Part shown: positions 4,098 to 51,645 of the stretch, piece after piece | Layout: each line of letters begins with the position of its first letter | Numbering within the stretch: the stretch's first letter is position 1 | Notes under the pieces: generated by a model | Databases searched by the model: none | Told to the model about the DNA's origin: nothing | What the model saw: the letters and a program-made list of their open reading frames with translations, nothing else | Made by a program: the position numbers and the translations under genes | DNA from: Halichondria panicea | Lineage: Eukaryota > Porifera > Demospongiae > Suberitida > Halichondriidae | Length of the DNA stretch: 64,000 bases | NCBI RefSeq assembly: GCF_963675165.1 | Contig: NC_087391.1 | Location: 3,181,001-3,245,000, forward strand | Reading direction: 5' to 3'

Positions 4098-5553
4098 TCC
4101 TAATCCATCACCACCACCCTTTTCTCCTTTGACCCCGGTTGATGAAGGGTGAGTTGCCAAACATTTTTATTACCATCACATGACTGTACTTTGTTAATTT
4201 CAGTGGAGAACAAGAGCTGTCTGTATTATTGAATGAGCTATATGTTAAGAATCTGCCAGTAGACCGGCTACTATCAGTCAATTGTCAACGAATTGTTGTT
4301 CGTCGCAAACACCTTCTGTTCGATGCAATGAAATACTTAAAAGTGACGTTTGTTGGAGAGCCTGCAGTTGACGATGGAGGGCCTCTTCGAGAGTTCTTCC
4401 ATCTCCTTGTAAAGAATTTATCCGAAGAAAACAAGCTGTTGTGTGGGCCTTATGATTGTCGAACGCCACGGAAGAACATCGTCGAGTTCCAGAAGAACTC
4501 TTTCTTTCAACTTGGGAAAATGATAGCTATGTCTCTTGTACATGGAGGTCTCTTGTACATGGAGGACCAGCCCCACATTTCTTCTCTCCTGCTGTGGCTG
4601 ACTTCATCTGTTATGGGATGTTCAAAGTTTACGCTTCCATTTCATTGTTATAATTATGCAATGCACCTATCAAATTTGGCCGTGAGCATTAATTAGGAAT
4701 GTTAATGTGTCATTGCCTAAATCTGAGCAGCTTATGTAATTAGTGGTTGTGGGGTTATTTAAATTCTGAACTTTAATGATGTTGAGTCATTGCACTTTAT
4801 AATTATTATAGCTGCAGAATTGTGCAACTGTGGACGAAGTGAGAGAGCTTCTGGATAGTGACAAGATGGGGTTTCGTTTTTCAATTGGTGTCTCTATCAA
4901 TTGGTGTCTCTATGCCAAGCTCATTGGTCCACTTCAACGATCGAGAGGCTATTATACGATCAGTGGCCACTCACTACTCTGTGCTGTCCGTGAAGGCAGA
5001 GCTTGACCAATTTCTCGATTGCTTCAAAGCTATGGGTGTTCTAGATCTATTTAGATCAAGACCGAACCAAATGAGACCTCTGTTGATTTCCGAGCCACAT
5101 GTCGATCTCACATCGGATTACATGATCTATTTGTTCAAGACTTGTCTCTCTCCATTGGGGAGTAATCAGAGAGAAGCTGAGGATGCTAGCATCTTGAAAT
5201 GGATCAACTATATTCAGATGATCGAAGGTTAGAATGAAAACAATAATAATTATGTTCCAATTTCATTTGTACTCTACAGATAATAATGGCAAAGTACAAG
5301 GTGAATCTCCCGATGGAGAACAGAGCCAATTTCTCGTGTCCTATGAAGTCGTTTGCCACAGGGTGTACCACCAGCTGGTTTCAGGATAGAGCCCTCTCTA
5401 AGATTCCAGTCATCAAGCCCCTATCCTACAGTCAACACCTGTACCAACACTATCCACCTTCCATTAACAAATCGTGGTTCCGATTCTTTCAATGTCTTTG
5501 CATATTGCATGTCCTCTGGCATCCTCAATAGTGCTGGATTTGGAAAAGTTTAA
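4098..5553 (+). pseudogene. HECT-domain E3 ubiquitin ligase of E1, broken
   Basis: An upstream exon (PPPFSPLTPVDEG) ends at 4148 with donor GTGAGT and rejoins at 4204. It continues into the HECT N-lobe: VVRRKHLLFDAMKYLK, VTFVGEPAVDDGGPLREFF. A 17-bp tandem duplication (4531-4547 and 4548-4564) shifts the frame before GGPAPHFFSPAVADFI. A second exon from about 4811 reads ATVDEVRELLDSDKMGFRFS and then hits a 16-bp tandem duplication (4881-4896 and 4897-4912), another frameshift. After it come AELDQF and the helical region to 5228. A last exon from about 5281 holds the C-lobe, PPAGFRIEPSLRF, YPTVNTCTNTIHLPL with the catalytic Cys at 5440-5442, and ends GILNSAGFGKV with stop at 5551-5553. Organisation and exon borders match the intact HECT gene of E2. 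Removing the two duplications would restore the local frame, so the damage looks recent. Confidence 0.75.
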
Positions 5554-5767: not shown

Positions 5768-6814
5768 TTAAGCAATCAATAGTTCGTACAATCCGTTTAA
5801 GGTGTGAGCAAGGGATGAATGACAACCGTGGCACACGTACATGGTCACGTGGTGGGTGACTGCACACTCAGACGTACCGGTGTTATGAATCATGTTCTGC
5901 TCGAGTGCACCTTGAATAAATAACTGGTTTGGAGTCATGTTTCGAGCACTTGCAACGGGATGGTTGTTCCAGCTTTCTACAAAACAATCTAGGGATTTAT
6001 TAATGCGTTTAAGGTACACAAAGCGCAGACAGTACAGGTTGATTTCATTCAGGCAATCTATATAGTACATTCTATATAGTACATTCTCGTCTTCCAGTTT
6101 ATAGAAGATGTGGTAAAAAATAGACGCAACACAACGGAAAACATCTCGCCATAATCTTTCAATGCGCTGGTTGTGTGTTGACGAACCAGTAATGATTGAA
6201 GATGAATCACAATGTTGTTCTACCATATAGCGCCAAACATCTACGTTTTCTCCACCCAAGTCTGATCTTATCCTAGTTGGCAATCCATGTCTTTCTACAG
6301 CATCTCGAAAGGCACCCAATACAGTTTCCGCACGGTTATTGTCACTGCAACGTAGAAACACCACAGTACGTGAGTAACCATCGATCCCACCGTCGATCCC
6401 ACCGTGAGTTACCAACCCCCACCTGATCAATTTATGGTGTCCATCAACATGCCAGACTGTGTTGGGCCCATCTGCATGATACACCCGGCATCTTATTGTA
6501 ATGCTCCTTCTAATTGGCTGTATTAATAGGGTCAACTCGATGAATCGATCCTCGTAACCGTGCTCTTTGTACAATTACCTCGTCTGGCAAGGTTACATCC
6601 GTTCCCCGTCGTTTGGATGAGCCTGTTTAATATTTTCAATGGATTCATCCAATTGTTCATCAGTAATGTCACTGTAAGAAACATGGTTCGGAACACCCTC
6701 CTCATTCAGTCTCCTATACAGAGTTGAGCGACTTATTTGCAGTAATTGTGCAATCTTGGTCCAGGTGAAACTCATTCCCCTTAAAAATTCCACATCATCC
6801 AAATTCCACATCAT
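5768..6814 (-). pseudogene. rve-type D,D-E integrase/transposase of E1, broken
   Basis: The 73-codon N-terminal part (6814-6593) is a helix-turn-helix: FTWTKIAQLLQISRSTLYRR. After an in-frame stop and a garbled stretch (about 6593-6530) the same frame resumes and runs to 5768. It carries the first Asp in VWHVDGHHKLIRWG, the second in RSDLGGENVDVW, and the Glu in THNQRIERLWRDVF, followed by conserved C-terminal sequence (FVYLKRINKSLD, NMTPNQLFIQGAL). A 12-bp tandem duplication (6381-6392 and 6393-6404) inserts four extra residues, giving HGGIDGGIDGYSR where the E2 copy has HGGIDGYSR. The gene converges on the HECT gene, as in E2. It is clearly homologous to the E2 integrase but diverged and inactivated. 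Confidence 0.75.
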
Positions 6815-16031: not shown

Positions 16032-17557
16032 ATGCCAAAGAAAAGCAAGAGAAGATTACAAGCAAGTGCAGCTCTTCAAAAACAGAGAAGATTATCCGCA
16101 ATTGGTGGTGCTACCTCAACTCTCTCGCAGTCGCAGTCGCAGTCACAAGCAGATGAAACTGTGCCTACACCTCCCAGTCTTCCCCCTGTTTCTCCCCTAA
16201 CACCAGTTTCTGAAGAATCTGGAGATGATACAGAGCCTGAATCTAGTGACAACGAAGAGCCAGATGTGCGATCACAGGAGGAGATTCTAGAAGATTTTTG
16301 TCTTGAATGGATGGTGACGCTTGACAACGATGAAAAAAGTCTCTGGCTGTTCTTCTGTGCCATTTTTCTGCCAAACATCATGGCATGAAAGCGACAGAAT
16401 CTGCTCAGCTTGCTGCTAGTTTTGTTGGAAAAAATGATAAGACTGTTAGGCGATGGAGGACTGGTGTATTACGTAACAAAGGAGTTTTACCTCAAAGTAA
16501 ACAGGGAAGATACGAAAGGAAGGGTGTACTTTGGCACAATGAGAATCTAAACAAGATGGCAACACAATATGTACGCAATAATTCTTCCATTAAAGGTAAA
16601 CCGAATATGACTACGTTCGATTTTTGTACGTGGGTAAATACAACTCTTCTACCGAGCCTTACTCTAGAACCAGGCTTCCCTCGAAAAGTTGGGGTAAGTA
16701 CCTGCCGAAAATGGTTGTTGACACTTGGTTTTGAAGTGATTACGCCACGAAAGGGAGTTTTTATCGATGGTCACAAAAGGGTAGATGTCGTCAAAGCCCG
16801 CACCGAGTACTTGAGAAGAATGGTCAAGTTGGGGTATGTTAGCTTGACCAATGGACCCACACCTGACGCAATTAAAGCAATCCCTGTAGATATTGAACCA
16901 AGATCGTCGATCTAAAACTGTGTTCATTTTTCATGACGAAACTACATTTCACTCAAACGATGACCAAATATTGAAATGGGGTCTAAAGGGCGAGAAAACA
17001 GATTTTATTGACAATCACATTTTATTGACAATCACAACGGGTTTTTGGCACTAACAGACGAAGAATATGATCAAGCAAAATAGTCTAATCCTGATGCAAA
17101 GAAATATGCAAGAGACTTTTTAGAATACGGAACTGGAACTTAAAAAGATTTGTGGCACATATGCACCGAGCTATTAAAATAGCAGAGATAAAGTACCCCA
17201 AAGATCAAGGATGGAGGCTTTGTTGGATCTTCGACAACAGTAGCTGCCACAACGCCATGGCTGACGATGCGTTACACGTTCATCGTATGAATATATTTCC
17301 CGGTGGTAAGCAGAGGATATTAAGAGATACAAGCTACAATGGCAAAGAACAATGGCAAAGAACAAAGAATGTACACTGTAGTAAATGGTCAGAAAGTTGC
17401 CAAAGGATTGAAGCGTGTTCTGGAAGAGAGAGGTATTTCAACTGACGGTCGAAATAAAGAGTGGATGCAGTCTGTTCTGTCTCAACACATCGATTTCAAA
17501 TTCGTGCCAAAGTTTCACCCAGAATTAAATCCTATTGAACGTGTATGGGCACAGATG
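16032..17557 (+). pseudogene. DDE transposase, 5' part, interrupted by E2
   Basis: ATG at 16032 opens a basic N-terminus with a Ser/Gln/Pro/acidic linker. A one-base frameshift near 16335-16345 is needed to reach the helix-turn-helix-like region KATESAQLAASFVGKNDKT, VRRWRTG, GRYERKGVLWHNENL. Further frame changes follow at about 16900. The catalytic segments remain visible: VFIFHDETTFHSNDD (first Asp, near 16921-16965), LCWIFDNSSCHNAMADDAL (second Asp, near 17220-17270) and FHPELNPIERVWAQM (Glu, near 17512-17557). Two exact tandem duplications (17 bp at 17002-17035, 13 bp at 17337-17362) shift the frame. The NPIERVWAQ ending is the DDE_3-like pattern. The last codons run straight into E2 at 17558, and the rest of the gene is found at 23181. 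Confidence 0.75.
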
Positions 17558-17579
17558 TATGGGGTGTTATCTGTGTCAA

Positions 17580-17912
17580 AATTACTACGCCAGTGTGCAT
17601 ATGCCAGTGTGCAATGTGCATATGTCAACATGCATGTGCATATGCCAGTTATGCCAGTGTGCAATGTGCGTATGCCAGTGTGCAATGTGCGTATGTCAAC
17701 ATGCATGTGCATATTCCAGTGTGCAATGTGCATATGCCAACATGCATGTGCATATGCCAGTGTGCGTGTGCAAACATTGCACACACGTCGTCAACACATA
17801 TGCCAGTGTGCAATATGGATATGTCAACATGCATATGTCAACATGCTATGTCAACATGCATATGCATATGGGAATTTGCGTATGTCAGTGTGCAATATGT
17901 ATATACCTCAAC
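17580..17912. repeat. Left minisatellite arm of E2
   Basis: About 20-21 bp units of the forms GCATATGCCAGTGTGCAATGT and GCATATGTCAACATGCATGT alternate. The same units, reverse complemented, form the right arm (22935-23150). Together with the 30-bp termini they make a long imperfect inverted repeat. Open frames across the array are repeat artefacts. Confidence 0.9.
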
Positions 17913-18027
17913 TGACAACAATAATTATGCATAATTATGCCAGTGTAGGCATTTTTTTATGAAAATATTTGCTGGCAATGTAACATCCACATGGTCTGGA
18001 TTTTAAATAAAGCACAGCATCATCATC

Positions 18028-20797
18028 ATGGCTGACAAAATTAGCAGAGCAAACAGCCTCTTAAAAGAGGCTGCAGAGCTATTGAACCCTACTGATGAAG
18101 ATTCACCTCCAGGTCCATCTACTGCATCTACTGCATCTAGGCCTACCGGTACCGGCAGCTCGTCTGTCATATCTAGGTACGTGAGCCTGCATGTACGTGT
18201 GCATGTAGAATAACAGGAGTGCATTCCTGAGAATAATTATAGTACTGTTATGCAATCCATCCATTCAGTGTTTTCAATGTCCAAGAGTTCATGCCAAGGG
18301 CAACTGGCAGAAGAAGAAACGCTGGAAGCACCCCTTACGAGAAAAAGGGTCGAGCTGGAATGACATGGACACACAAATTCGTATGTCTTGGTCAAACTGC
18401 TGTTGAAAGTGTGCCAAATCCTCAAGATAAGTATACACTGAAACAAGCTGACCTCGGTGAGAAGAAACTTGTGTTCAAGCTAAACGGGGATTATGTTCAT
18501 CTTAAAGAAGTGATTTTGCAATCATTTCCGTTATTGGTTAAGGCTGGTGGCTTTGAGCTACACCGAACAGACGGCCCATACTCCAGGGCATTGATCCCAA
18601 TAGAACAGAAGTTCTTCACCTCAGTTGCTAAACTCAAGTCGTATGTGGTGCAAGCAAGGGTGTACATTCGCCCAGTTCAAGCTGACATTATGGACATTTT
18701 CGGCTTACCATGTGAGACTGGAGAGGTAAATGGAACAACTGACAAAATAATGTGCACAGTGCTATAATTATGTATGTTCTCCTTAATAAATTAAATGTAG
18801 GGTACAGAACCCAAAGAGAGGTGCTTGGAATGCGGAAAAGAAGTGGAAATCTCTTACTTAAAAACACATATTGAAGTGTGCAAAGAAGCAAGCGCCTTGT
18901 GCAAAAAAGAGAAGGAAAAGGGAAAGTAGGTATTCTTTACTTTTGTATCAATTTGCAACGGCTTTTTGTGTTAGGGATTCTGATTCTTGTGACAGCCTGC
19001 CCCCTACACCACCAACATTGGCTGAATTGCTACGGTCATCAGCAAGGAATGCAATCCGCTCTGGGCAGCCTGACCAGACCCCTACACCTCCAACATCATC
19101 AGCATGTTCAACAACCCGCTCTGGTCGTTTTGCATCGTAAGTCAAACAAACGTGATAACTCAATTATTTATTATACGATAGGGCATACATCAATCTCCTT
19201 GAGGAAGGCCTCCCTGACCCTACACCTCCAACATTGGCTGAAACATCAGCTTGTTCAACAACCCGCTCTGAGCAGCCTGTTCGTTTTTCATCCACTGGTT
19301 ATTCGTAAGTCAAACAAACGTCATAGACTCAATTATTTATTATACGATAGGGCATACGTCGATCTCCTCGAGGAAGACCTCCCTGCCGAATACGAGCCGG
19401 AACTACAGATGGCCTTAGAAGCTAGTCTTGCTACTGCTGAAAGAGATTTTTCAATGTAATAATAAGTGTTTCATGTACAGCTAATATAATAATATAACTA
19501 TCATAGGCAAGAAGTTGACACCCCTGAAATAGTCAAGCAACATGTCTCAGAACTGAACATTAAATGTGGAGTTGAAGACCCACACCAACAGCTAACTGTG
19601 CGACGTAAGCACCTCTGGGAGGACATCAAACGGTGTTTTTCGAAGCCCTACACAAATGTGTTACTGCCACTACGAGTCACCTTTGTCGGTGAATCTGGAG
19701 CTGATGAAGGTGGACCCAAACGAGAATTCTTTCGACTTGCATTGGAGTCTTGTATTGGTAATTCATCCTTGTTCACTGGTTCCACATACGAAAAAGTGCT
19801 CTTGCATAATACCACTGCTCTCCTCCAAAAGCATTATAAATATGTTGGGCACATTTGTGCAATGTCCATAGTGCAAGGTGGACCTGGACCCATGTGTTTT
19901 TCAAGTTGGGTATATGATTATTTAGCCGAAGGGTTGGACGGTGTGGTGATCAATGTCAGTGATGTACTTGTTGATTCAGTGAAAGATTTTTTGGGAAAGG
20001 TACGCTATACACCTAACATGATTCAGACTATAATTATGTTGATATACAGGTTGCACTGACTACTGACGTCACCACCCTTCGTGAGCTCTTGCGTGAAGAT
20101 CCAGCTGATGTTGTTTTTGAGTGTGGGTTCTCGAAACCTATCACACAAGTGTCCTTAGAAGATGTCCCAATGTTGCACAAGGCGATAGCCATCAATTCGT
20201 GTTTGGTGCCAATCAAAGCCGAGTTGGATCAAATGAAAGAAGGTTTGCGTCTATTTAACGTTGACGGACTCCTCAAGAAATATCCAGCCAAGATGAAGAA
20301 GCTGTTTGTGGTATGTGGCTCACCAGCTCGCCTTTCTCTAGCGGAGTTTATGGCACTCACTGAGTATAACTACTCCGTCAATGGTTCAAATGACAGAGAG
20401 GCAGAAGAGTCTACCACTATGAACTGGGTTGAATTTCTGGCGGAAATAGAAAATGGACTAGCAGGTAAACCAGACATTCTAAGAGTATGTGTGCAAGATA
20501 TCTGTGATTCTTATCTTTACAGTGTGCACCGTTCATTCTATTGATGGAGGGAATGAGGAACACACACTCAGCTTGGAAGATATACTTGTTTTTGCAACTG
20601 GAGCTGACCGAGTTCCTCCAATGGGCTTCCATAAAATGGTGACGATCGATTTTGACCGATCAAACATATTCCCTACTGCCTCCACTTGTTCTCTGACGAT
20701 GTACCTGCCCATGGCCACTACTATGATGTCTTATGACCAATTTAAAACTGGCATGATTGAAGGACTAGTAAGCGGTTTTGGTTTTGGACAAGCCTAA
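18028..20797 (+). CDS. HECT-type E3 ubiquitin ligase with UBZ-like finger and UIM (E2 cargo)
   Basis: Nine exons with GT..AG introns join in frame: 18028-18176, 18269-18725, 18801-18925, 18975-19136, 19182-19304, 19351-19455, 19507-19999, 20050-20464 and 20523-20797. They give 2304 nt, or 767 residues plus stop. In order: a Ser/Pro-rich N-terminus; a conserved region about 65-200 (HKFVCLG, LGEKKLVF, GGFELHR, VYIRPVQADIMD) like that of fish and cnidarian proteins annotated as G2/M-specific E3 ligase-like; a C2HC finger (Cys210, Cys213, His225, Cys229) of UBZ type; a Thr/Pro-rich linker; a UIM at about 352-369 (EPELQMALEASLATAE); and the HECT domain from about 405 to the end. The HECT catalytic Cys is 732 in PTASTCSLTMYLP, 35 residues from the C-terminus as usual. 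HECT enzymes form a ubiquitin thioester on that Cys and pass it to substrate. It converges on the integrase gene. Why a transposon carries it is unknown. Confidence 0.85.
19085..19370 (+). repeat. Tandem exon-plus-intron duplication within the HECT gene
   Basis: The segment spanning the end of exon 4, its intron and the start of exon 5 is repeated at the end of exon 5, its intron and the start of exon 6. Both copies share TCAGC(A/T)TGTTCAACAACC, a donor followed by AAGTCAAACAAACGT, the AATTATTTATTATACGATAG acceptor and GGCATAC. The frame is kept, so the Thr/Pro linker before the UIM has simply been lengthened. Confidence 0.75.
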
Positions 20798-20804
20798 CTG
20801 TTCA

Positions 20805-21014
20805 TAGTTGAAGAACCACTTCTGTTTTTCATTTGGTTGCAATCACGTATTTTAATCACTGTGAGAACCACTTCATTTTGATTGCAGAACCACTTTTGTT
20901 TTTTTCTTTTTCATTGGTTGCAATCACGTATTTTAATCACTGTGAGAGCCACTTCATTTTGATTGCAGAACCACTTTTGTTTTTTCATTCATTGATTATA
21001 AAAATAAAATAAAC
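20805..21014 (+). repeat. Duplicated 3' untranslated segment and poly(A) signal of the HECT gene
   Basis: Behind the stop at 20795-20797 a segment of about 85 bp is repeated: GAACCACTT ... GGTTGCAATCACGTATTTTA ... GTGAGA(A/G)CCACTTC. AAAAATAAAATAAAC at 20999-21013 contains AATAAA and is a plausible polyadenylation signal for this transcript. Confidence 0.6.
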
Positions 21015-21510
21015 AATCTCAAACTAGTATATCAATAGCTTGTCGATACAAATTTATACCATAGTTGGAATCATCTCCAGTAGGATCAATATTGCACCGA
21101 CGTAATTGTTGTAAGCATAGTTAAGGGTTTGGCATTGTCACCTGTGGTACAACTACAGTATGGTCATCAAGCGAGTACGGTAGTGGAGCACTGAGGTCGA
21201 TTCCATCACTTACAGATACAGACCCCTATAGAAAAACAACGTATTAGAACAAGCACCAACAACTAAGTGATTACATCATTGAGGGGAATTTGATTTTTGA
21301 CAGTAGTAGTATGGACATAATTATAATTATTTATACAAGCTGAGCTAAAAATGTTCTGGGAAGGAATATATGTCCCGGACCCCGATCCTCCTATAGTTTG
21401 TATAGTTGTATAGTTTGCAATGCACCTTGTGCATATGTACGCACCCCCCCTCCCCCCAATTTTTTATTTCGCCTATTTGCCCTAAATAAATCACAAAGTT
21501 CACTTAAAAC
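21015..21510. other. Intergenic gap between the two convergent genes of E2
   Basis: About 0.5 kb lies between the presumed poly(A) site of the HECT gene and the stop of the integrase gene. It contains a C-rich run near 21446-21459 (two CCCCCC blocks). No further gene is recognised. Confidence 0.5.
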
Positions 21511-22866
21511 TTACATAGTTTTATAGTTTTGTTGGTGTATCTGTGCACAGCGAATAGCACCAGAAACAAACAATTGTATCGGACTTCGATTCCCACAGGA
21601 GCTCAGTGGGTGGTGAGCATAAGCATATCTAAAACTGTCCAGGCTCTGTTGAATTCTCGGTTTATAGACATAGTGGAGAACAAGTAAATGAAGCTCGTTG
21701 CATGGATCAAGATGTCCACACGTTTCGAGATAAGAGAAGATGTTGTAGTATAGACCAAGACAACCTTGATACACGTCTCTCCAAAGTCTCTCGATTCTTT
21801 GGTTATGAACCGATCGACCCATAATCATACCTTCACCTAATCCAGTGTGCTGGCGAGACCACATGTATTCGGCTACCTTAATATTTTCTCCTCCCATATC
21901 TGATCTCACTCGTAGTGGACATCCGTACGTGTTAACTGCTTCAAGGAAATACTGAAAAACCAATTCGGAAGTGTTGGTAGTAGAACAATTCAAAAACACA
22001 GGCAACCTTGAATAACCATCTATTCCACCATGCACCACAAATCTCCATCTGGGTTAAAAAAAACTGGTTTATACAGCTGCATGCATGTATATAATTATAC
22101 AGAAAACTTAGTGGCCACATAATTATGTATTGTGCACACATACTTAAATAGGCGGCCATACCTATTATAGGCTACATAAAAAAGCATCATACCTTACTAA
22201 TTTATGGTTTCCATCTATGTGCCATAAATATTGGGGTGCAGGAACGTTGTAGACTCGTCGACGTACACTGGTATGAAGCCTACTAGCTATACCCTCAGGA
22301 TCAGTCCGTCGTAGAGATTCTCTTACTCGAATTTGTTGAGTAATTATTCCCTGTGCCCGAAGGTGACCGTTCATCATTTTGCTACCACATCCTGGATGTT
22401 GTGCAGATATTGTTGTCACAATCTCATCGAGGTTTTGGTCGCTGATACAGCAATAGTTAGTTTCATATGAGAGGCCATACTGCCTCATTCGCCTACAAAC
22501 AGTACTTCTAGACACACCAAGAATTGTGGCAATGTCTTGAGACGTGAACTGGAGGTCCATGAGACTCTCAAGTGCACTAGGGGAAATTTCGAATGCAGGC
22601 CGGCCTGGTATGGATACTTCAACATCTTGAAATTGCTTCCAGCACTCAAATACATTTTGTATTACTTGAGAAGGAATTAGACCACCAAAACTTAAATCAG
22701 TTTCGATCAAGTCAGCATATAGTGATTCCAGGCGAACACAAAAGTTTTCTAACTCGTCAGTGTCATCTACATCAACATGCTGTATACTAACAACAAGTGC
22801 ATCAAGCCTATTCGCAAGTGAAGCTACAACTCCTTCCATTTGGTGGGCTTTGCATTTAGAGCACAC
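21511..22866 (-). CDS. rve-type D,D35E integrase/transposase (E2)
   Basis: Two exons, 22866-22193 and 22048-21511, join across a GT..AG intron with matching phase. The total is 1212 nt, or 403 residues plus stop. The N-terminus (1-90) is unassigned and includes a CxxC (CSKC). A helix-turn-helix lies at about 98-132 (LQFTSQDIATILGVSRSTVC). The retroviral-integrase-like fold follows: Asp218 in LWHIDGNHKLVR, Asp275 in RSDMGGENIKV, and Glu311 in HNQRIERLWRDVY, so the second Asp and the Glu are separated by exactly 35 residues. HGGIDGYSR precedes the second Asp. These residues bind the metal ions for strand transfer in the family. The broken homologue in E1 confirms the gene. As the only recombinase in E2, with matching termini and target duplication, it is the likely transposase. 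Confidence 0.85.
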
Positions 22867-22934
22867 CTAGCATGTTCACCTTTGACCTCCGCATGACATG
22901 TACGTATCGTGAACTTGCGATGTCATACATCATA

Positions 22935-23150
22935 GATACATGCATGTAAATTCACATGCTGACATATACACATTGGACACTGACATAATTATATAAATGT
23001 GCAGCACACATTGATTGCACACTGGCATATGCATATGCATGTTGACATATGCACATTGCACACTGGCATATGCACATGCATGTTGACATATGCACATTGC
23101 ACACCGGCATATGCACATTGCACACCGGCATATGCACACTGGCATAGTAA
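22935..23150. repeat. Right minisatellite arm of E2
   Basis: Units such as CACACTGGCATATGCACATT and GCATGTTGACATATGCACAT are the reverse complements of the left-arm units. They end directly at the 30-bp terminus. Open frames through this array are artefacts. Confidence 0.9.
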
Positions 23151-23180
23151 TTTTGACACAGATAACACCCCATACAGATG

Positions 23181-23408
23181 AAGCGATATACAAGAGCACA
23201 CTGTAATTATTCCATTCAATCTTTACGAGTAAACATACCTAATTCATACGAATTCACGAACGAAAACATTCAAAACCATTGTAGGAAAGTTAGACACTAC
23301 ATGTTTGGCTATCTAGAAGGACTTGTGCCTGGAAAGGAGCTGGATGAGAAACTTAAAAAGTATAAAACTGCGGTGAAGTCACACAGGCGTATTGGAATAC
23401 ACGAGTGA
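23181..23408 (+). pseudogene. DDE transposase, 3' part, displaced by E2
   Basis: After the right CAGATG (23175-23180), whose ATG is the same Met codon as the one before E2, the frame continues KRYTRAHCNYSIQSLR, FTNENIQNHCRKVRHYMFGY, LEGLVPG and ends KSHRRIGIHE with stop at 23406-23408. This is the C-terminal part expected after NPIERVWAQ in the family, so the two halves belong to one gene. This part shows no frameshift. A 3' flank of about 430 bp leads to the right end of the host transposon. Confidence 0.75.
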
Positions 23409-50078: not shown

Positions 50079-51645
50079 TTAAGACTGAACCGTGACGTGC
50101 ATAACTGAAGTTTTACTGAGATAATTATTAATGATGTGGAAGAGGACAATGAGAGGATAATTTAAGTAAACTTTCTTGTGAGACGAATATTGAGACGAAT
50201 AGAATATTGTGCAAGTTAAAATCATCTGCCAGTATCTGTGCCTAGTCATTTTCCTCGTGTGGAATTCAAACCGACCGAGCCACTTGAAAGCTTGTTCAGC
50301 ACATTCAGTATTTACCCCGTGGATTTCGCTGAAAGCAGAAAGAGGGTATTGGGTTCTCAGGAGGCATACAACACACAGTGTGCTTGTTACAATGGAACAA
50401 AACCTGACTTTGTTCAGAAGTATTTTGGCTCCCAACGATCCTTTGGCTTCCAAATTCTTCAAAAATAGATGAAAACCACACGCCCTCAATCTTTCAAGAT
50501 CGTGTACGTTCCTACCAAACGTAGTGTATAGGAAAATGTAGGCATGTAAACATTTCGGTAAAGTTGATCCACATGGTCTTACACAGCGAAAAGTCCGGCA
50601 GTTCGGTCATAAAAACGATCGATATTCTTACAACCCACCAGAACAGTGTCATCATCATTGTCAGGAAGAGGTGCTTTTTCAGCATGTTTTCGCCATGTGC
50701 TGGGCAAAATTTGACGGTATTTTACTCTTTCCCTCCAAGTTTCAGGACAACACTGGGTAATATTTAATACTCGAGTCTCACGATCCTGTCCAGCTTTAGC
50801 TTTAGAGTGCACACATTGGCCGGCAGATCTTCTCAATGCCATCCAAACAACAGTAACTGCATAAAAATATTATACATGCAGTCACTATAACTTCCAATAA
50901 CCTATAACTTCCAATAACTTAACTTTATAATGCGACTAAGGTGAGTATAATTATACAGAGTTAGTGTTAGGGGGGTGGTTAGGTAAGGGGTATATAGGTA
51001 AATGGTATAGGTAACAAGGTAGGGTTAGCAATGTGTTAGGGGGATGTTAAGCAGGTAAGGGTTAGGGGGGGTTAGGAGTAAGGGTTAGGGGGATGGTTAG
51101 GTTAGGGGGTTAGGTAGGGGGTTAGGGGGAGGGTTAGGTAATGTATATAGGTTAGGGTTAGGTTAGTGGGATGGTTAGGTATATGGGTTAGGGTAAGGGT
51201 AAGGGTTAGGTTAGTAGAGTTAGGGTCATGGTTAGGTAGTTTGGTTAGGAGTTAGGTATAATAGTGGGAGAGGGTGAAGGTAAGAAATATCTTACCTTCC
51301 GTGCATTCTTTCTTGTCGCATTGATGGTGCACCCACGGACTGGTTTTACTTGTTATGTACAGTTCGTCTACGCCAACATCTGTAGCGAAGCTGGTTGATA
51401 AAAGATTACCACAGTCGTTGTGGTAATTAACCAGGCAGTACATAAACCATGCGTCTTCAATGTTTCGACCATCGACCAAATAGAGTATGGTCTTTCAATC
51501 GAAGACAATCCGCTTCTCTGAAGTTAGCATTGTATACCTCGGCTCTTGACTCAAATGAAGCAGCACTGTTGTTAGTCATAATTATCTTGTAGCAAGTTAA
51601 TTTCAAAAACTGTAGTGCAGTGAAAGTATTTTGCATCATTGACAT
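50079..51645 (-). pseudogene. KDZ-like transposase relic
   Basis: Down the minus strand the segments are: RNIEDAWFMYCLVNYHNDCG, then WVHHQCDKKECTEG (51479-51300) ending in donor GTAAG; after about 430 bp, DGIEKICRPMC (near 50830) and GCKNIDRFYDRTAGLFAV (to 50579); then further down RACGFHLFLKNL and VNTECAEQAFKWLGRFEFHT, RKMTRHRYW (about 50330-50220). The H-x-C-D..C exon end, the following DGxxKxxRxxC and the NTExxEQxFxWL..F..TRxM motif are the KDZ (Kyakuja-Dileera-Zisupton) pattern as I remember it. Frames do not join cleanly, so this is a relic. Telomere-like repeats fill the intron. Confidence 0.45.
50955..51265. repeat. Interstitial telomere-like (TTAGGG-related) repeats
   Basis: The + strand carries many GGTTAGG, TTAGGGTTAGG, GTTAGGGGGATGGTTAGG and AGGGTAAGGG units, degenerate but unmistakably G-rich in TTAGGG register. 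Unique sequence continues on both sides, so it is not a chromosome end. It lies in the intron of the KDZ-like relic. Confidence 0.75.

Follow-up and report, generated by a model that had tools for sequence, protein, structure and literature searches.

The window analysed here is a 64,000-nucleotide stretch of the genome of the sponge Halichondria panicea (assembly GCF_963675165.1, contig NC_087391.1, positions 3,181,001 to 3,245,000 of the forward strand). A transposon of 5617 bp occupies window positions 17558-23174, with ends that are exact to the base, and carries two genes, one for a predicted E3 ubiquitin ligase of the HECT type and one for an integrase, which lie on opposite strands and converge tail to tail. 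Its termini read TATGG...CCATA and are inverted repeats, positions 17558-17587 being the reverse complement of 23145-23174 at 30/30 bases (TATGGGGTGTTATCTGTGTCAAAATTACTA). The ends of the element and the reading frame that it interrupts comprise the following features.

17324..17557, forward strand: left part of the interrupted target gene, a DDE_3-type transposase reading frame
17552..17557, no strand: target site duplication CAGATG, left copy
17558..17587, forward strand: left terminal inverted repeat, starting TATGG (30/30 bases)
17594..17864, no strand: left sub-terminal tandem repeats, in 20/41-bp units
23014..23138, no strand: right sub-terminal tandem repeats, inverted relative to the left arm
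23145..23174, reverse strand: right terminal inverted repeat, ending CCATA (30/30 bases against the left)
23175..23180, no strand: target site duplication CAGATG, right copy
23181..23408, forward strand: right part of the interrupted target gene

The sub-terminal tandem repeats are possible binding sites for the transposase.

Insertion site and mobility

Removing the element together with one CAGATG rejoins the target frame, so that ...ERVWAQM is followed directly by KRYTRAH.... We searched the joined flanks against the window's own 131-Mb genome for empty target copies. Besides the two window halves, two copies were recovered, C5 at 98% and C13 at 97% identity (query bases 100-320). Read base by base, each has a single CAGATG, lacks the element, and is the same as the joined flanks at the insertion point (GGGCACAGATGAAGCG). 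The C5 and C13 copies (L068 and L069) also show small indels; the largest are stretches of 54 and 74 bases, some 50 bases left of the site, that are missing from the window copy (about 17504/17505). The target copies therefore differ beyond the insertion.

A sequence-only reading of the window had described the exact ends, the 30-bp inverted termini, the inverted minisatellite arms, the CAGATG on both sides and the restored frame, and all of these are confirmed, the last also by the empty copies. It had proposed a self-contained transposon with HECT and integrase genes, which is supported by both genes being present in another copy with the same termini and its own duplication and in four copies of a second family, and had suggested a search for empty sites at orthologous loci; the two that were found are paralogous, not orthologous. 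It had also placed the insertion within another transposon. That description holds for the reading frame, which has two other copies and which the Pfam profile assigns to DDE_3 transposases barely above the cut-off (30.3 versus 28.6 bits), and the support extends as far as that frame.

A search for further copies with shared termini had also been suggested, and such copies exist. A genome search with the first 67 bases of the element gives 14 matches. A second full copy, at C11:3308358-3313943, has GAGACG on both sides and differs from the window element by 8 mismatches in 5555 aligned columns and by nine indels of 1-30 bases. Two shorter elements have the same ends and duplications of CTCCTG (L018, 1163 bp) and AGGGAT (L020, 2835 bp). 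A diverged relative on C7 (L021) carries both genes, its integrase gene being split by ~2.9 kb of other sequence.

A second family of ~7 kb, family B, has TATGG ends other than those of the window family and likewise contains both genes. Two of its copies are 99.9% identical over 6299 columns and start with TATGGAGCGCC. A search with the family B ends gave 36 matches, which bound four elements of 6992-7025 bases, two longer elements and two single ends. Each of the four elements encloses HECT and integrase matches between both termini, and they are flanked by duplications of GATACA, ATTACT, GAATAA and, at 7 bp, CATACTA. Across the eight insertions in which both ends were read (the window element, the C11 copy, L018, L020 and four of family B), the duplication is 6 bp in 7/8 and 7 bp in 1/8. 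The window element is real and recently mobile, and family B is independent proof of mobility.

The two longer family B elements lie at C2:2778152-2791644 (13.5 kb) and C1:8641118-8655131 (14.0 kb); in both, the additional sequence lies on the side of HECT.

The two genes

The genes of the window element and the parts discussed below are located as follows.

18028..20797, forward strand: HECT E3 ligase gene, 9 exons, 767 amino acids (gene model; PF00632, E 1.1e-10; E6AP alignment)
18270..18725, forward strand: HECT exon 2, a conserved N-terminal domain with a tentative beta-grasp (PB1/ubiquitin-like) fold and no Pfam match
18822..18881, forward strand: C2HC zinc-finger-like motif (CLECG...THIEVC), below the Pfam cut-off
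19394..19447, forward strand: stretch in the linker that resembles a ubiquitin-interacting motif; no profile matches it
20687..20689, forward strand: codon of the catalytic cysteine, cysteine 732 in PTASTC, aligned with the TC of E6AP
21121..22839, reverse strand: integrase/transposase gene with a helix-turn-helix (HTH) region and an rva_4 core; the end near 21121 is tentative

The HECT gene is open throughout, with GT..AG introns whose splice sites were picked by eye. The Pfam HECT profile scores 42.1 bits against a curated cut-off of 23.9. Among solved structures the top match is the HECT domain of E6AP/UBE3A (PDB 1c4z), which is matched in both N-lobe and C-lobe and whose catalytic TC aligns with PTASTC of the element protein. 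The relationship to E6AP is distant, however, and the match is confined to the HECT domain, with a query that did not include the preceding part of the protein. By its domain score and catalytic cysteine, the element protein qualifies as a predicted HECT E3 ligase. The structure prediction for the N-terminal domain gives a beta-grasp fold at modest confidence, with the PB1 domain of p62 as the best match, and this domain could be the substrate-binding part of the protein. The C2HC-like motif is also present in L021, in family B and in a HECT protein of Dysidea avara. A sponge protein in which HECT follows this zinc-finger-like motif carries the annotation 'G2/M phase-specific E3 ubiquitin-protein ligase-like'. 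Together with the many relatives of the integrase (below), it hints that the pairing, or a domesticated offspring of it, may occur beyond this genome.

Two loci differ in the region where the 5' part of HECT would lie. L052 (1-1753) and L053 (1-1732) are wholly different upstream and 99.5% identical over 3762 columns; this is a truncation or an exchange of the N-terminal half of HECT.

The integrase gene is read as two stop-free exons (22839-21515), with a short third exon likely near 21225-21121, its junction unsettled. Its core is rva_4 (PF24764, E 1.6e-73) with HTH-type matches upstream, and the catalytic residues D209, D266 and E302 are spaced as D-56-D-35-E (DD35E). The zinc-binding (HHCC) integrase family is absent from the 16 Pfam matches to the element proteins. 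The integrase has 3140 relatives in the protein collection. In a six-frame list of frames of at least 40 amino acids, no further frame within the element was judged gene-like, the frames not having been searched one by one against families.

Two tandem 81-bp copies (20825-20985) lie directly past the HECT stop codon, between the convergent genes.

Relation to known transposons

IS3EU/GingerRoot transposons have TA..TA termini, usually 6-bp duplications, and an integrase-like DDE transposase that lacks HHCC (PMC10045372). The window element and family B share the TA..TA ends, as TATGG..CCATA, and the element has the 6-bp duplication and a DDE core without HHCC. We therefore regard the element as IS3EU/GingerRoot-like, a fit to the published description rather than a placement by tree. 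The second gene sets it apart, being a HECT ligase, and neither 'HECT' nor 'ubiquitin' occurs in the main text of PMC10045372. Membership of Ginger1 or Ginger2, which are defined by 4- or 5-bp target duplications (PMC10045372), was considered and rejected, the duplications here being 6 bp.

Fungal IS3EU families offer a close parallel in layout. They have TAYGG..CCRTA ends, 6-bp duplications, and genes for a TET/JBP dioxygenase and an alpha-kinase, of which the kinase gene runs opposite to the transposase gene and the dioxygenase is proposed to relieve silencing (PMC12730594). The element has the same end type, 6-bp duplications and an accessory enzyme gene opposite to the transposase, whereas the fungal accessories are a dioxygenase and a kinase; 'HECT' and 'ubiquitin' are again absent from the main text of PMC12730594. 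There is a precedent for an E3-ligase-type domain in a lineage of DNA transposons, namely the RING fingers of Chapaev transposases and RAG1 (PMC4411706). There, however, the RING is fused to the transposase, whereas here a separate HECT protein is encoded by its own gene.

The sequence-only reading had held the arrangement to be undescribed. In the literature searched we recognised no publication that describes a HECT gene in a DNA transposon and none that links IS3EU with HECT, although Repbase entries could contain the pairing unremarked. As far as that literature goes, the pairing is new; its novelty is narrowed by the RING precedent and by the superfamily being a known one.

Polintons and Mavericks carry genes for DNA polymerase B, protease, ATPase and capsid. 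Membership of this group was rejected for an element with two genes, and no other frame judged gene-like, within exact 5.6-kb ends. A reduced Polinton/Maverick-like or viral element, of which only integrase and HECT have been kept, would account for the 6-bp duplications and for an integrase broadly similar to that of Polintons (PMC10045372). This origin is nevertheless highly improbable, as the elements contain two genes in 5.6-7 kb with no other frame judged gene-like, have TA..TA ends, and encode an rva_4 integrase with HTH-type matches. In addition, one integrase exon found no relative in a viral contig collection, in a search that reaches close relatives only.

Linkage of HECT and integrase genes across the genome

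With part of HECT as the query, 72 exon matches were merged into 48 loci, and the integrase query gave 127 matches in 94 loci; both counts are lower bounds, the searches scoring best candidates only. A convergent integrase locus lies within 5 kb of 37/48 HECT loci, where about 0.38 would be expected by chance. The other 11 comprise two with a same-strand integrase, two with a convergent one at 5-10 kb, and seven with none within 10 kb. The Pfam HECT profile finds 68 loci, 40 of them with an integrase within 5 kb, and all 40 of these pairs are convergent. Seen from the integrase side, with the HECT evidence pooled, a convergent HECT lies no more than 5 kb away from 50/94 loci.

These counts go beyond the sequence-only reading: the HECT gene is common to many families of the genome and is not one element's private capture. 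The element is part of a many-family, two-gene lineage and a new variation on a known transposon superfamily. That this lineage is mobile as a two-gene unit is almost certain. Since the same gene pair is found in many related elements of the genome, the ligase appears to be a regular helper gene of such transposons.

The window holds a second, decayed convergent pair, HECT at 4286-5550 on the forward strand and integrase at 5882-6793 on the reverse strand, with stop codons in both; its termini were looked for and not found. Elsewhere, inverted integrase pairs ~6.6-16.5 kb apart lie at C13:4273554+/4280732-, C1:8835046+/8842788-, C8:780883+/796363-, C16:4429677+/4446133- and C9:2874332+/2880896-. 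At C13, C1, C8 and C16 the minus copy has beside it a match to the HECT C-lobe that scores below the Pfam cut-off. These inverted pairs are possible composite elements.

Selection, co-inheritance and the role of the ligase

Selection was measured on one pair, the window element and its C7 relative L021, a comparison in which the proportion of synonymous differences (pS) is saturated. For HECT (567 codons), pS is 0.787 and the proportion of nonsynonymous differences (pN) is 0.248, with mismatches of 0.309, 0.205 and 0.591 at the three codon positions. The integrase (379 codons) has a pS of 0.760 and a pN of 0.181, with mismatches of 0.251, 0.153 and 0.520. In this pair, HECT and integrase are both under purifying selection as proteins. 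The cysteine of the TC motif is kept in 11/11 representatives inspected (the window element, L021, B, C, the old window pair, and E-J, with E and I close to each other); J reads LTC and the old window pair NTC. Over 10 representatives, J being excluded because too little of its HECT aligned, pairwise HECT and integrase distances correlate at r 0.78, a value reached by 3/5000 permutations.

Several observations weigh against a ligase that belongs to the element as a working part. When close pairs are cut to one member each, leaving eight representatives, r falls to 0.32 (reached by 170/2000 permutations), because two close pairs drive the correlation. Co-inheritance is thus shown at recent depth only, and the weak agreement over eight representatives means that HECT and integrase genes may occasionally have changed partners. 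No integrase lies within 5 kb of 28/68 Pfam HECT loci, the highest-scoring loci among them; these highest-scoring loci we take to be host genes. On the integrase side, 41/94 loci lack any HECT match within 5 kb, and in 3/94 the only HECT is on the same strand. L016, a relative that has the left end in common and contains a fragmentary integrase, shows no HECT match in the 9.5 kb read. Finally, HECT exon 8 of the C11 copy is missing 7 bp that the window element has. The exon model is thereby thrown out of frame, whereas the integrase of this copy remains open over the 391 residues compared. HECT is therefore not needed in every copy.

The integrase loci without a detected HECT and the broken HECT frame of the C11 copy are what would be expected if HECT were passenger cargo, captured from the host and without a role in transposition. 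Such a history has a parallel in the fungal TET/JBP genes, for which passive transfer from one transposon to another is described (PMC12730594). We consider this account unlikely. The convergent layout recurs across representatives that are 44-77% different in HECT (one close pair, at 14%, set aside), the domain order is the same wherever the reading extended to the 5' part, and the tested pair shows purifying selection on HECT, whereas a gene captured a single time as cargo should decay. That HECT serves transposition is, in our judgment, likely, and the element as a whole is probably an autonomous DNA transposon of IS3EU/GingerRoot type that moves by cut-and-paste and carries two genes, one of them for a HECT helper.

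In a transposon of this kind, the integrase would bind both the inverted termini and the sub-terminal repeats, and would move the element. The HECT helper would ubiquitylate a protein that limits transposition, for which our guess, a tentative one held at somewhat less than even chances, is a host factor, most probably one of silencing or repair. The tentative PB1/ubiquitin-like domain and the zinc-finger-like motif may choose the target. By analogy, a ligase would serve the same end as the fungal IS3EU dioxygenase if it tagged a silencing or repair factor for degradation. Alternatively, HECT could ubiquitylate the transposase complex itself, such that the integrase-DNA complex is removed and the ends are handed to repair. 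That the two genes have been inherited together in the recent past is consistent with such a substrate, as is the report that the ligase domain of RAG1 ubiquitylates RAG1 (a reference-list title in PMC4411706). The existence of relatives without a detected HECT argues against it, and we consider the transposase an improbable substrate.

Among the enzymes that transposons are known to encode are erasers of silencing marks; if a complete HECT ligase is a standard second gene, transposons would also rewire host protein turnover. Returning to the HECT helper acting on a host factor, its substrate could point to a factor that keeps DNA transposons in check, and the near-identical copies make both the activity of the element and the role of the ligase directly testable. 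A wider idea, which we hold to be rather doubtful, is that an animal IS3EU-like lineage uses HECT as its second core gene against host silencing or repair factors and seeded part of the animal 'G2/M phase-specific E3 ligase-like' HECT genes. For annotation, the Pfam count is a warning that, in a genome of this kind, a sizeable share of HECT genes (40/68 loci beside an integrase) sits in transposons.

Other features of the window

A telomere-like array rich in GGGTTAG/GGTTAG units lies at 51035-51256, at an interior place of the contig.

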